A stretch of 64,000 nt of DNA from Planctomycetota bacterium (GCA_016188675.1 JACPHJ010000126.1:1-64000), one strand, 5' to 3'. Shown: positions 29,265-35,546, counted from the stretch's first letter. Notes: generated by a model from the sequence alone, not told the origin. Numbers and translations are program-made.

Positions 29265-29546
29265 TTAGGTTTGATTGGCTTCAATTTCTACTCCTACTAA
29301 CCTCGATAAAACTTTTGGAGTTAATTGTTTCACTCTCACATAGAGCACTTTTCCCCCTCCTGCTTCAATCTCCTTTGCCATAATGAGATTAAACTCTTTC
29401 AATTCATGGTCAAATTCAGGCAGGAATATAATCAATTTTTCTTCTGTCAAAACTTCATTCATCTCAGGATGTTCTAGAACATATTTACTAAACTCCATAC
29501 TCAATTCAGAATTCTTCATAAAGAAATAGTCACTCTTTTTTTTCAT
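29265..29546 (-). CDS. DUF5647-like small protein
   Basis: About 93 aa from the ATG at 29546 (MKKKSDYFFMKNSELSMEFS). A helical N-terminal half with YVLEHPEMNEVL, then strand-like segments (KLIIFLPEFDHELKEFN, KVLYVRVKQLTPKVLS). The pattern fits DUF5647, as I remember it. It overlaps the upstream gene by 17 bases, so the two are made together. Such a tight, small, AT-rich pair is reminiscent of toxin-antitoxin modules, but no function is established. Confidence 0.6.
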   Translation of the reverse strand: MKKKSDYFFMKNSELSMEFSKYVLEHPEMNEVLTEEKLIIFLPEFDHELKEFNLIMAKEIEAGGGKVLYVRVKQLTPKVLSRLVGVEIEANQT

Positions 29547-29865
29547 TTTCAATGTCCCCCAAAAATATTTGTTTGTACATTTTCCAATTTGACTTAATAT
29601 CGTATTCAGCAAAGGTCAAAGCCTCATTATAATCTCTGGAAAATATTGGTGTTTTTTGTTTGTTGCCCTTCCTGTCGAATAAATCACGATGAGCAAAACC
29701 ATGTTCGGTATCATATCTTACCACGGGAAGCCACTTACCTTTGAGGTTTGTCTCGTATTGTATAATAAAGCTGATTACCTGTCTTTTGAATCTTATGTGT
29801 GTATGGCGAAACCTGTCTTCTGGTGTGAGTATAACGATAAATTTTATCTCTTTAACGGTAGTCAT
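29530..29865 (-). CDS. DUF7718-like small protein, partner of the DUF5647-like gene
   Basis: A 111-aa beta-rich protein (KEIKFIVILTPEDRFRHTHI, IIQYETNLKGKWLPVVRYD, HGFAHRDLFDRKG). The His/Arg-rich middle (EHGFAHRDLF) could form an active site. Its 3' end overlaps the next gene. It faces the radical SAM island across a 230-base AT-rich gap. Assignment to a named DUF is from memory and moderate. A toxin or nuclease role is possible but unproven. Confidence 0.55.
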   Translation of the reverse strand: MTTVKEIKFIVILTPEDRFRHTHIRFKRQVISFIIQYETNLKGKWLPVVRYDTEHGFAHRDLFDRKGNKQKTPIFSRDYNEALTFAEYDIKSNWKMYKQIFLGDIENEKKE

Positions 29866-30097: not shown

Positions 30098-31198
30098 ATG
30101 TCAACAAAAATTAACAAAGAATCTAAGAATGAAATAATGAAATACAGAGGAGAACCTCATTTTACCCTTCAATGGCATATCACCGCAAAATGTGATCAGG
30201 ATTGTATGCATTGTTATCGTTATGCTAAACCTACTTATGAACAAGAACTGAAAAACGAACTAAGTTATGAGGATTGCTGTAAAATTATAGATGATTTCAG
30301 TAACACTTTTAACACTTATGGAATGCCAACAAGAATTAATTTTACAGGTGGTGACCCTCTATTAAGGAAGGATATTTTTGATTTAATAGTATATGCTCGA
30401 AAAAAAGAAATAGATGTTGGTATATTGGGCAATCCCAATTACCTAGATTATGAGACCACAAAAAAATTAAAAGATATAGGTGTATCTAGCTATCAGGTAA
30501 GTATTGATGGCTTGGAAGAAACCCATGATAGATTAAGAGGAAGAAAAGGATTATTTAAGGATACTATTAGAGCCATTCATGCATTAGAAAATGTAGGTAT
30601 AAGATCTGTCGTAATGTTTACTTTAAGCAGGGAAAATGCAAATGAACTTATAGGAGTTATACATACAGTAGCAAAAGAGGGTGTATCAATATTTGATTTT
30701 GCTCGGATAGTATCAATCGGCGCTGGTGAGCAATTCAGAGAACAAACGTTAACTTCGCAAGAATACAAAAGACTTTTACTTCAAGTATTAGAAGAATATA
30801 GATGTTTACAGGAAAATGGGAACAAAACTTATTTTGGTAGAAAAGATCATCTCTGGAAATTGTTATATCAAGAATTAGGATTGCTTAAACCCTTTCCGAA
30901 AGATAAAGAAACGATATATAGTGGTTGTGGAATAGGCTCAAGTATTCTAACTATTTTAGCAGATGGTACAGTGTATGCCTGTAGAAGGCTGCCCGTAGAG
31001 ATAGGTAAAGTTCCTGAGCAAAGTATCAGAGACATATTTATAAATTCATCTGAACATAATAAAATGCGGCAAGTGGAAAAGATGCGAAAATGCAGTAAAT
31101 GTGAATTGGTACAGTTTTGTAGAGGTTGTCCCGCAGTTGCTTATGCAACTCATAGAGATTATATGGCACCAGATCCACAATGCTGGAAGGAGATTTAA
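30098..31198 (+). CDS. radical SAM/SPASM peptide-maturase-like protein
   Basis: A 366-aa radical SAM enzyme. The cluster motif is C32-x3-C36-x2-C39 (AKCDQDCMHCYRY), with FTGGDPLLRKDI near 87 as the GGE-like AdoMet motif and YQVSIDGLEETHDRLRG near 147. The C-terminus is a SPASM domain with seven Cys: SGCGIGS, GTVYACRR, CSKCELVQFCRGC and a last QC near 362, enough for two auxiliary [4Fe-4S] clusters. SPASM enzymes often form thioether or C-C crosslinks in ribosomal peptides. The Cys/Gly/Ser-rich peptide encoded 1.15 kb downstream is the natural substrate candidate. First gene of an AT-rich island; its promoter should lie in 29866-30097. Confidence 0.88.
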   Translation: MSTKINKESKNEIMKYRGEPHFTLQWHITAKCDQDCMHCYRYAKPTYEQELKNELSYEDCCKIIDDFSNTFNTYGMPTRINFTGGDPLLRKDIFDLIVYARKKEIDVGILGNPNYLDYETTKKLKDIGVSSYQVSIDGLEETHDRLRGRKGLFKDTIRAIHALENVGIRSVVMFTLSRENANELIGVIHTVAKEGVSIFDFARIVSIGAGEQFREQTLTSQEYKRLLLQVLEEYRCLQENGNKTYFGRKDHLWKLLYQELGLLKPFPKDKETIYSGCGIGSSILTILADGTVYACRRLPVEIGKVPEQSIRDIFINSSEHNKMRQVEKMRKCSKCELVQFCRGCPAVAYATHRDYMAPDPQCWKEI

Positions 31199-31249
31199 GG
31201 TATGGAAGATTATAAAAAAGAAGTGTTAAATAATTAATAACAGAAAAAT

Positions 31250-32071
31250 ATGAAGACTACCGAGATAATTAAGATATTATCAGCTCCCATAGTATTTGCT
31301 ATAGCACTTGTTGTTGCTTATATTATAAAATTTGAGGTTTTGAAATGCACTAAACATGAATTAATATGTTTAGTCATAATTATCGGTTGTCCTTTATTGA
31401 TTGCGACACTTGCATTTTTATACTTTGCGAGTTTATCTGGACATGGAGGTATTGAAGATTGGAAAAAAGTTTCAAATGAGTTGAGTATTTTAAAACGAGA
31501 AGATATACAAAAATCGCTCTCTGAACTAAACAATTTATCGATTATTACTGAGAGATATAGAAAAACAACCCCAGTAATGGCAATCATTGATGATTATAGT
31601 GATTATCTAAAACATAAAAAAATAGAATCTGTATGGATATTTGGTGTTTCATTAGGCCATACTTCAGGAAACATTGATAAGGTTCTTTTGCCTTATCTCG
31701 AGAAAGGGATAAAATATCAATATTTATGTACTGGAGATATAGATAAAATAAGGGTTCGTGCAAAAAATATTGCAAAATATTTATGGCAGAAAAATCTTCA
31801 ATACATAAGTGCAAAACATATAAGAATAAATCATGTAGAGTCACAACTTGTTCCATTACCCATAAGAATTTATAATTTGGAAGAAGGAAATTCTGAAATC
31901 TTTCTTTCTTTTCCTTCTGAAATTGAAAATACTTTGGCTAAAAAATATGGAATATTGTTAACTAATGAAGACTTAGTCGAAACCATCAAAGAAGACTTTA
32001 TTATTCTTTGGGATAAAAATAAGAATAATGAATTAACTTTAGAAAATTTTTGTTCAAAAGAAAATCTTTAA
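31250..32071 (+). CDS. membrane-anchored protein of unknown family in the RiPP-like island
   Basis: A 273-aa protein. Two membrane helices occupy residues 10-28 and 38-64 (IFAIALVV-type and LICLVIIIGCPLLIATLAFL). A linker helix follows, then a soluble alpha/beta domain (SVWIFGVSLGHTSGNIDKVL, YQYLCTGDIDKIRVRAKNIA, RIYNLEEGNSEIFLSFPSE). The domain recalls PLD-like or nucleotide-sensing folds only in its strand pattern; no catalytic HKD motif is present. It follows the radical SAM gene by 51 bases and is probably in the same transcript. It could anchor the maturation complex, sense something, or give immunity. Function unknown. Confidence 0.6.
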   Translation: MKTTEIIKILSAPIVFAIALVVAYIIKFEVLKCTKHELICLVIIIGCPLLIATLAFLYFASLSGHGGIEDWKKVSNELSILKREDIQKSLSELNNLSIITERYRKTTPVMAIIDDYSDYLKHKKIESVWIFGVSLGHTSGNIDKVLLPYLEKGIKYQYLCTGDIDKIRVRAKNIAKYLWQKNLQYISAKHIRINHVESQLVPLPIRIYNLEEGNSEIFLSFPSEIENTLAKKYGILLTNEDLVETIKEDFIILWDKNKNNELTLENFCSKENL

Positions 32072-32119
32072 TTTAGGTATTTATTATACTGCATTAGTTC
32101 CATTACCCTTAAATAATTA

Positions 32120-32345
32120 TTGTCCCATTCGGGGAATGGGAGAAAAACCCTCGCCTTTAGGCGAAGACTTTAGTATGCCACGAAGTGGCCAAATTTGGAT
32201 GTTCTCCGACCAAAGTCAGGGACTTTAGTATATTAGATTGAACTACTACCGTCTGAAAGCGGTGGTTTCTGCAGGCTGCCGAGTCGAATTTATTCGGCAA
32301 GGCGTTGTTGGTCAGCCAAGTTATCGGCTTTAGCCGAAGGAGTTG
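32120..32345 (+). mobile_element. IS200/IS605-type end sequence, remnant without transposase
   Basis: The interval 32072-32353 has no gene but several small hairpins: CCCATTCGGGGAATGGG, CTCGCCTTTAGGCGAAG followed by ACTTTAGTAT, a second GACTTTAGTAT, CCGAGTCGAATTTATTCGG, and CGGCTTTAGCCG at 32328-32339. GCCTTTAGGC and GGCTTTAGCCG hairpins with ACTTTAGT spacers are the style of IS200/IS605 ends and of the guide-RNA scaffold at the tnpB 3' end. No tnpA or tnpB remains. The last hairpin ends in AAGGAG, which then serves as the ribosome binding site of the precursor gene. Confidence 0.5.
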
Positions 32346-32353
32346 CAAAGCTT

Positions 32354-32635
32354 ATGATTAAACAAGAAAAAGAGATGTTAGGAAAATATGCTATTTGGCA
32401 AGAATTATTTTTTCATCAGGATAATTGTATAAATAATGTAATTAAAGATCATAAGACAACCTATCGTGTTGGTTGCCAAGAAGGTGGATCTTGCAGTGAA
32501 GGTGGATGTAGTGGCTGTAGTAGTTGTAGCCCTAGCCATAGACTTGGCAATTCGGGATATGATGATGTTAGCAATTTAAATAGTAGTACTTGTAGTGGAG
32601 GTGGATGTAGTAGCTGTAAAGGTTGTAGTTCTTAG
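32354..32635 (+). CDS. Cys/Gly/Ser-rich precursor-like peptide with duplicated Cys module
   Basis: A 93-aa peptide. Residues 1-40 form a helical leader-like part (MIKQEKEMLGKYAIWQELFF..). The C-terminal part holds nine of ten Cys. Two modules have identical spacing: C47-x4-C52-x2-C55-x2-C58-S and C80-x4-C85-x2-C88-x2-C91-S, separated by a 21-residue polar loop; C41 and C25 lie outside. This is typical of radical-SAM-modified peptides (sactipeptide/ranthipeptide-like), where Cys sulfur is joined to other residues. It is flanked by a SPASM enzyme gene upstream and a glycosyltransferase downstream, so crosslinking and glycosylation are both possible. No export gene is seen. Confidence 0.75.
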   Translation: MIKQEKEMLGKYAIWQELFFHQDNCINNVIKDHKTTYRVGCQEGGSCSEGGCSGCSSCSPSHRLGNSGYDDVSNLNSSTCSGGGCSSCKGCSS

Positions 32636-32710
32636 TGATATGTTGTATAAATTCAAATATTTAGCAATTTTCAGTAAAAGTTGTGGTAAGGATCGTTTAG
32701 TATTTATCTT

Positions 32711-33910
32711 ATGAATAATACTTTGAGGATTTGCTTTATATCTAAATATCCCCCTATTGAAGGTGGTGAATCTGCAAAGGCATATTGGCTAGCTAAAGCA
32801 CTTGGTGAAAAGGGTCACGAAGTTCATATAGTCACAAACGCTTGGGAGGTAGAGAGTAGCTATAGGGAGCAGATAGATGCCGAAGATTTAAGTTTTAACT
32901 TCCAACCTAAAAATGTACATGTTCATAATACAGATCCCTTCATAGAGCCTGCATATATCCCTTATTCAAAACCTTATACCGAGAAGATAGCCAGTCTTGC
33001 TATCGATATCATCAAAGAATATGATCTGCAATTGATAGATTCATGGTATATACTTCCATACGTTATCTCTGGCTTTCTCGCTAAAACATTAACTGGTAAA
33101 CCCCAAATTATGCGTCATGCAGGAAGTGATATGAGCAGGCTTTTATCCTCCCCATATCTTGGAACATTGTTTACTTCTATATTTGGAAAAGTTGATAAAA
33201 TTGTTACTTATCCAAGTATGAGGGAACGATTTCTAAGCCTTGGTATTCCAGAAGAAAAACTGTTTTATAATACTAAAGTAAGTATTGATACCAAAGCCTT
33301 TAATCCAGAAGTTAAACCAATTGATTTATCGCTCTATACCAATAGAAATATCAATTTACCGATAATCACTTATATAGGGAAAACAGGAATAACCAAAGGA
33401 ATATATGAGTTAGCAGAAGCATCTAGCAAGATAAAAGATGATTTTTTATTATTGTTTGTTTCTAAAGGTCGAGATTTAGATAAATTTAAAGAAACTATTA
33501 AAAAATTAGGATTACAAGATAAGACACTTTTTATTGATTTTGTGCCTCCCTGGAAGATACCATCTATTATTAAAAGATCAACTTGTGTACTAATTCCAGA
33601 GCGTGATTTTCCTGTAATACAACATACACCGATATTGCCGAGAGAGGTAATGGCTGTTGGTAAATGCATGATATTAAGTAACGAACTTTACGCTAAAAGG
33701 CGATCTCCTGATATGCAAGATGAAGGTAATTTAATTACAGTTGACCCAAAAAATATCGAGGAATTTAAAGGAAAATTAGAGAAAGTGATAAAACAACCTG
33801 AATATGCTGAGAGAATAGGGAAAGCAGCTTCGGTTGTATCAAAGAAAATAGAGCGTTTCGATGAATATGTTGAAGATATAATAAATTTGTATAAAGAAAT
33901 TATCCAATAA
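32711..33910 (+). CDS. GT4-family glycosyltransferase
   Basis: A 399-aa GT-B-fold glycosyltransferase. The N-terminal domain starts ICFISKYPPIEGGESAKAYW, the acceptor-side Gly loop of GT4 enzymes. The C-terminal domain has ITYIGKTGITKGIYELAEA near 220 and, near 300, PERDFPVIQHTPILPREVMA in the place of the family E-x7-E donor motif. No membrane segment. It lies 75 bases after the Cys-rich peptide gene in the same AT-rich island. The acceptor may be the peptide, as in glycocins, or an unrelated sugar. The donor is unknown. Confidence 0.82.
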   Translation: MNNTLRICFISKYPPIEGGESAKAYWLAKALGEKGHEVHIVTNAWEVESSYREQIDAEDLSFNFQPKNVHVHNTDPFIEPAYIPYSKPYTEKIASLAIDIIKEYDLQLIDSWYILPYVISGFLAKTLTGKPQIMRHAGSDMSRLLSSPYLGTLFTSIFGKVDKIVTYPSMRERFLSLGIPEEKLFYNTKVSIDTKAFNPEVKPIDLSLYTNRNINLPIITYIGKTGITKGIYELAEASSKIKDDFLLLFVSKGRDLDKFKETIKKLGLQDKTLFIDFVPPWKIPSIIKRSTCVLIPERDFPVIQHTPILPREVMAVGKCMILSNELYAKRRSPDMQDEGNLITVDPKNIEEFKGKLEKVIKQPEYAERIGKAASVVSKKIERFDEYVEDIINLYKEIIQ

Positions 33911-34001: not shown

Positions 34002-34125
34002 CTATAAAGATGATTTAAAATCCTCGTCTTTGTCTGCCTTCTCAGGTTTTGCATCTTTTGATAATTTCTTTTTCTTGATTTCTTCTGATTTTAACTCTGG
34101 CACCTTGATTCTGTATTTCTTCTCT
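34002..34125 (-). pseudogene. duplicated 3' end of cvpA
   Basis: The frame reads KSEEIKKKKLSKDAKPEKAD and KDEDFKSSL-stop. The intact cvpA at 34971 ends with EEIRKKKLSKDAKPEKPNKDEDFKPSL, so this is a diverged copy of its last 30 codons. It begins directly after the stop of the methyltransferase-like gene and ends where the AT-rich island starts. It probably records a duplication or recombination at the island border. Confidence 0.75.
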
Positions 34126-34970: not shown

Positions 34971-35546
34971 TTACAGAGACGGCTTAAAATCCTCGTCTTT
35001 GTTTGGCTTTTCCGGCTTTGCATCCTTTGACAATTTCTTTTTCCTGATTTCTTCTGCGTAACCTCTCACCTTATTCGATACACTTTCAGGAACGACAGAG
35101 ACTATCGTCTGCATGCCTTTCCCAATCTGGCTTGCAATCTTTGAGGCATTGACCGTGTCACACGTCGGCCTGGTGCAAAATAACAGGACGCCAAAGATTA
35201 TTACGCCGCAAAAGACAAGCCCCTTCAGAATCCCTAATAATGCGCCAAACAGCCGGAGACCAAACCCCATCTTCCACCTGCCCATTATCCTCTTCAGAAC
35301 GTCTGTGATGATGTACGTGGCAATGAATGCAACGCCAAAGACGACAAAATAACTTAACAAGCTTGCAGTGGAGGGCGTGAAAATGCCCTTCATGAAATTA
35401 CCCAAAATACTATGGAAGAAGATTGCAGCGAAAAAGGAGACCAATAAACAACCGATGCGGAGGAGTTGAAGTACCGGACCGCTGGCAAGCCCCAGTGCCG
35501 TGGCGAAGAACAGGACGACAAAGATTGTGTAATCAATCCAATTCAT
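34971..35546 (-). CDS. CvpA family membrane protein
   Basis: A 191-aa protein with four membrane helices (IDYTIFVVLFFATALGLASG at the start, then LRIGCLLVSFFAAIFFHSIL, LLSYFVVFGVAFIATYIITD and LFGALLGILKGLVFCGVIIF) and a charged C-terminal tail. The layout fits CvpA/colicin-V-production family proteins, which are widespread and linked to envelope maintenance. Its exact activity is not known. The gene follows the AsmA-like gene by 17 bases on the same strand. Confidence 0.85.
   Translation of the reverse strand: MNWIDYTIFVVLFFATALGLASGPVLQLLRIGCLLVSFFAAIFFHSILGNFMKGIFTPSTASLLSYFVVFGVAFIATYIITDVLKRIMGRWKMGFGLRLFGALLGILKGLVFCGVIIFGVLLFCTRPTCDTVNASKIASQIGKGMQTIVSVVPESVSNKVRGYAEEIRKKKLSKDAKPEKPNKDEDFKPSL

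Follow-up and report, generated by a model that had tools for sequence, protein, structure and literature searches.

Our results suggest that a radical SAM/SPASM enzyme (rSAM) and a Cys-rich 93-aa peptide, both encoded in an AT-rich island of an anammox Planctomycetota genome, form a maturase and precursor pair. The window, i.e. the whole stretch of DNA analysed here, is 64,000 nt long, and the island genes lie between positions 30,098 and 33,910. With moderate confidence, we consider the rSAM to be the maturase of the 93-aa peptide, which would modify its core repeatedly under the guidance of a leader, the likeliest products being thioethers. The architecture of the enzyme, a leader motif present across lineages, a duplicated core module and the composition of the island are observed directly. 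The features are as follows.

29265-29865, minus strand: small DUF5647 and DUF7718 genes, left edge of the AT-rich segment (GC3 0.33-0.37)
30098-31198, plus strand: putative rSAM/SPASM peptide maturase, 366 aa, seven-Cys SPASM domain, predicted to have no fused RRE
31250-32071, plus strand: 273-aa orphan protein, two predicted N-terminal TM helices and a soluble domain; pathway role doubtful
32117-32350, plus strand: IS200-type remnant, left end 32117-32178, tnpA lost; right limit inferred from hairpins
32354-32635, plus strand: candidate precursor peptide, 93 aa; leader motif LGKYAIW at aa 9-15, Cys/Gly/Ser core at aa 39-93
32492-32527, plus strand: core module 1, CSEGGCSGCSSC, Cx4Cx2Cx2C, aa 47-58
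32591-32626, plus strand: core module 2, CSGGGCSSCKGC, Cx4Cx2Cx2C, aa 80-91
32711-33910, plus strand: GT4-family glycosyltransferase, distantly BshA-like, with island composition; pathway role doubtful
34118, no strand: right boundary of the island, where identity to a same-genus genome begins (95% over 2.3 kb)

The preliminary description of this DNA had named a radical SAM/SPASM enzyme with a full Cys set and a Cys/Gly/Ser-rich peptide, and both were borne out. The enzyme matched the Pfam families Radical_SAM (75 bits) and SPASM (37 bits). Its CxxxCxxC motif (C32/C36/C39) and the seven SPASM cysteines (C277, C295, C332, C335, C341, C344 and C362) were all invariant in an alignment of 10 sequences. 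The best NCBIfam family was TIGR04340, rSAM_ACGX (338 bits, E 6e-101, cut-off 400), followed by SbtM (TIGR04082; 205 bits, cut-off 350). The scores against the SkfB, StsB and PapB models were 92, 88 and 83 bits, with cut-offs of 300, 625 and 340, respectively. The predicted structure consisted of a confident rSAM core and a SPASM domain, and its nearest solved structures were SkfB, BlsE, SuiB and PqqE. Only about 20 residues, predicted to be disordered, precede the rSAM barrel and leave no room for a fused RRE. Two standalone PqqD-like genes (L134, L135) were observed on other contigs of the same genome.

No other ORF of 60-150 aa in the window is as rich in Cys as that of the 93-aa peptide (10 Cys). 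In 300 shuffles of the island with dinucleotides preserved, no ORF of 50 aa or longer reached 10 Cys at 10%. The core (55 residues) holds 9 Cys, 12 Gly and 16 Ser. Its two modules share the same Cys spacing at a distance of 33 residues and repeat each other in the DNA as well (85%); a two-module core was found in 1.8e-4 of the shuffled cores. The peptide matched no NCBIfam family, TIGR04341 included. It is encoded 1.15 kb downstream of the rSAM gene, whereas the peptides of related loci lie directly upstream of theirs, and a small Cys peptide looked for directly upstream of the window rSAM was absent.

A leader motif, L-x2-[YF]-x-[FYI]-W, was found near the N-terminus of the window peptide (LGKYAIW) and of the peptides at four related loci, L023 (LEMYGFW), L026 (LSCYAFW), L028 (LSKYAYW) and L114 (LQKFNYW). 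With the window included, the leader-bearing non-ACGX loci number five in total. The four related peptides are 52-60 aa long (that of L114 counted from an internal ATG), are encoded directly upstream of the rSAM and carry Cys near the C-terminus. The motif appeared at 1e-4 to 1e-3 per peptide in composition shuffles and in 7 of 4252 background ORFs, and the only matches with at least 3 Cys were the rSAM-linked peptides. Among ACGX peptides, 53 of 62 showed the spacing L-x2-Phi-x2-[WF] (Phi, hydrophobic; a criterion defined in this analysis) before the first ACG, versus 1.45 expected, a count over related peptides and hence not over independent events. Because the leader motif is common to four independent relatives and the ACGX peptides, there is strong evidence, from sequence comparison, that the 93-aa peptide is a substrate of the rSAM. 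The simplest reading is that the leader would be recognised by this rSAM family while the core is free to vary.

Relatives of the enzyme were collected by a one-genome-per-species scan and whole-genome searches, and they were of three kinds. The first comprises true ACGX loci, such as L005 from the same bacterial family, where a TIGR04341 peptide lies directly upstream of the rSAM gene. L005 served as the positive control (enzyme, 608 bits to TIGR04340; peptide, 77 bits to TIGR04341). The second comprises non-ACGX enzymes, namely L023, L026 and L028 (44-50% identity), L029 (42-43%) and L114 (377 bits to the group profile). L114 was the only non-ACGX locus added when whole phyla were searched, namely Planctomycetota, Patescibacteria and those of L023 and L026. 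The third kind is clostridial (L024, L025 and L027); these rSAMs are 47-50% identical to that of the window, among the closest by identity, and adjoin agrB, an agrD-like gene and a histidine kinase, with no Cys-rich peptide. The same rSAM-agrB-agrD arrangement is present in C. thermocellum (Cthe_1309/Cthe_1310/Cthe_3348), where the rSAM and agrB genes respond jointly to substrate (PMC3880215). The agr-linked rSAM of these clostridia may act on an Agr-type signal.

At L029:572-1705, from the anammox bacterium Anammoxibacter, the rSAM follows a 377-aa protein which ends in SSCSSCSSCASCSSCS and has no leader motif; this suggests that a larger protein with a Cys tail is the substrate there. A search of viral contigs with the rSAM gave L112, an ACGX locus, and L113, a giant-phage-like contig. 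The latter, 504 kb long, encodes an ACGX-related rSAM at L113:4941-6026 and no recognisable Cys-rich peptide nearby. A nitroreductase-like gene was seen downstream of several ACGX rSAM genes (L104, L105 and L112). It was rejected as a family trait, since the motif occurred in 20 of 85 loci and in none of the non-ACGX loci L023-L029 and L114.

In a tree rooted with four heme-type rSAMs, the ACGX crown was supported at 100/99, and the window enzyme fell outside it together with L028, L023, L026, L029 and L114. Outward from the crown, the order was L114, L029, L023 with L026 and L028, the window, and the agr-linked clade. This order is a working hypothesis, because several branches are long and the root branch is very long. 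As such, it would place the window enzyme in an early-branching, undescribed non-ACGX relative of the predicted ACGX systems.

The locus had earlier been thought to match no described class. This has to be qualified: the nearest system is the predicted ACGX system (TIGR04340/TIGR04341), although the locus fails the cut-offs of both models. Like ACGX systems, it combines an rSAM/SPASM enzyme predicted to lack an RRE with a small Cys-rich candidate precursor, a repeated core and the leader spacing L-x2-Phi-x2-W. In contrast, its rSAM scores below the cut-off and lies outside the ACGX crown, and its peptide has neither ACGX repeats nor a TIGR04341 match and is downstream of and separated from the rSAM. 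Ranthipeptides (SCIFF; CteB, PapB) share a SPASM maturase with a Cys-rich peptide and, by analogy, the likely thioether chemistry. However, CteB has an N-terminal RRE (PMC8326336), which is predicted to be absent here, SCIFF precursors have 6 Cys in 45 residues rather than 10 in 93, and the PapB score is below its cut-off. Among sactipeptide enzymes, SkfB is the nearest solved structure both by fold and by profile, but an RRE and a twitch-type C-terminal domain set it apart, and the window enzyme stays below the cut-offs of both sactisynthase models, SkfB and StsB. The clostridial agr loci differ in that AgrB and an AgrD-like peptide adjoin the rSAM, with no Cys-rich precursor and no leader motif. 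The thio(seleno)oxazole maturase SbtM is the second-best match, yet it also remains below its cut-off.

ACGX systems are widespread in gut Clostridia and Methanobrevibacter; they are predicted and uncharacterised, and no description of the chemistry of ACGX enzymes was found in the literature searched. ACGX rSAM-peptide systems are already known, by prediction only, and the non-ACGX variant locus is new here. Judging from this locus and its relatives, ACGX may form the crown of a larger family whose hallmark is the leader motif instead of the repeat, with differing Cys-rich cores in anammox bacteria, Patescibacteria and others. The leader motif can itself serve as a search motif. For anammox bacteria, the locus would represent a rare, horizontally acquired peptide pathway.

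The substrate pairing, the leader recognition and the modification are what we infer from these comparisons. The rSAM would bind the precursor directly through the short N-terminal motif, with no fused RRE. 5'-Deoxyadenosyl radicals derived from SAM would then activate carbons in the Cys/Gly/Ser core, and Cys sulfurs would close Cys-S-to-carbon thioethers with the help of two auxiliary [4Fe-4S] clusters. Such modifications would be repeated across the core holding the two modules. Thioether closure with auxiliary clusters has been proposed for SkfB, CteB and related enzymes (PMC8326336). The chemistry is the weakest step of the proposal, as C-C bonds, epimers and cyclopropanes are likewise products of related enzymes (PMC8326336, PMC9062424). 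The maturase and precursor reading as a whole has against it the position of the window peptide, the larger protein of L029, the agr-linked loci L024/L025/L027 and the number of loci, five only.

The peptide might instead be modified by another chemistry, such as Gly or Ser oxidation, epimerisation, or C-C or cyclopropane formation. Several of these reactions are done by SPASM or related rSAM enzymes of similar fold, SbtM is the second-best family, and repetitive cores can bear unexpected products, for example the cyclopropylglycines of TvgB (PMC9062424). However, Cys is the residue common to all cores of the group, and in the window its spacing occurs twice; we regard this alternative as a real possibility but a rather unlikely one.

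Alternatively, the peptide could stay unmodified, as a Cys-rich protein of metallothionein-like or other kind that simply neighbours the rSAM; this would fit its CxxC-rich composition and a gene order unlike that of the relatives. We hold this to be improbable, since metal binding does not predict a leader motif common to the rSAM-adjacent peptides of other phyla and to ACGX.

All four genes were found as intact ORFs on the plus strand, in the one direction reported before. The gaps are 51 and 75 nt, with about 45 nt between the 273-aa gene and the IS remnant. The GC content of the island is 0.30-0.37 versus about 0.43 in the surroundings, and the GC3 of its four genes is 0.18-0.24 versus 0.48-0.57 in the flanking genes; the preliminary description was therefore right in calling the island more AT-rich than its surroundings. 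The four genes probably arrived together, because they share this unusual GC3. Of seven genomes of the genus that were searched, only one contained the locus. The mobile-element scar noted earlier could be assigned to an IS200-type element: in other genomes of the order, positions 32117-32178 recur with up to 98% identity immediately ahead of a gene which, judged from its sequence, we take to be an IS200-like tnpA. The remaining 170 nt of the remnant, hairpin-rich (z -3.5) and ending beside the peptide start, probably represent the right end of the element. Since the remnant abuts the peptide start, expression of the peptide may be altered.

An IS200 insertion may even have upset the operon, leaving a decaying system that is no longer functional after its acquisition. 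Besides the place of the remnant and the rarity of the locus within the genus, the lack of a dedicated peptidase or exporter, reported before and seen again among the four genes, would agree with decay. Yet none of the four ORFs is interrupted, no catalytic or SPASM cysteine has been lost, and the remnant itself carries a ribosome-binding-like AAGGAG (32337-32342) 11 nt ahead of the peptide start. We consider loss of function improbable.

The other two proteins were as described before: a GT4 glycosyltransferase, whose nearest solved relatives include the small-molecule enzyme BshA, and a protein with two predicted TM helices and no accepted Pfam or NCBIfam family. A PDB match of the latter (E 0.01) was discarded as meaningless, and a single-sequence structure model (pLDDT 40) was too poor for use. 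A single pathway of all four genes, with crosslinking by the rSAM, attachment of a sugar at Ser or Cys by the GT4 enzyme and anchoring or export of the product by the 2-TM protein, would be in line with the common strand, the short gaps, the shared GC3 and a core rich in possible acceptors (Ser and Cys). However, neither a glycosyltransferase nor a 273-aa homolog adjoined the rSAM at the non-ACGX related loci inspected. Neither protein had a close homolog in 59 related genomes, and plasmids and viral contigs gave no homolog of the 273-aa protein either. To our knowledge, the characterised S-glycosyltransferases of glycocins belong to family GT2, not GT4, and the BshA-like window enzyme has no link to related rSAM loci. 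We consider the single pathway quite improbable. Very improbable, too, is a RiPP type with no described counterpart: a glycosylated, radical-crosslinked and Cys-rich product of a non-ACGX maturase, with completion and display left to the GT4 enzyme and the membrane protein.

Of the RiPP pathway first proposed, the rSAM and Cys-rich peptide pair in an acquired island stood, with the leader motif in four relatives and ACGX, while the glycosylation and the role of the 2-TM protein were not supported. Glycosylation of the peptide is possible with low probability. The GT4 and 273-aa genes probably came with the island, because they have the same composition, and they are more likely co-acquired cargo than pathway enzymes.

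An Rfam scan of 29-36 kb matched nothing. At the left, the DUF5647 and DUF7718 genes adjoin the island and are AT-rich, with GC3 intermediate between island and host. A clean empty site could not be demonstrated, as the same-genus genome aligns to the right flank only. Near the right boundary, an 85-nt direct repeat (85%) was observed at 34003-34087 and 34972-35056. In this repeat, the 3' end of a CvpA-like gene has a copy beyond a 263-aa gene, which is possibly a trace of the insertion event.
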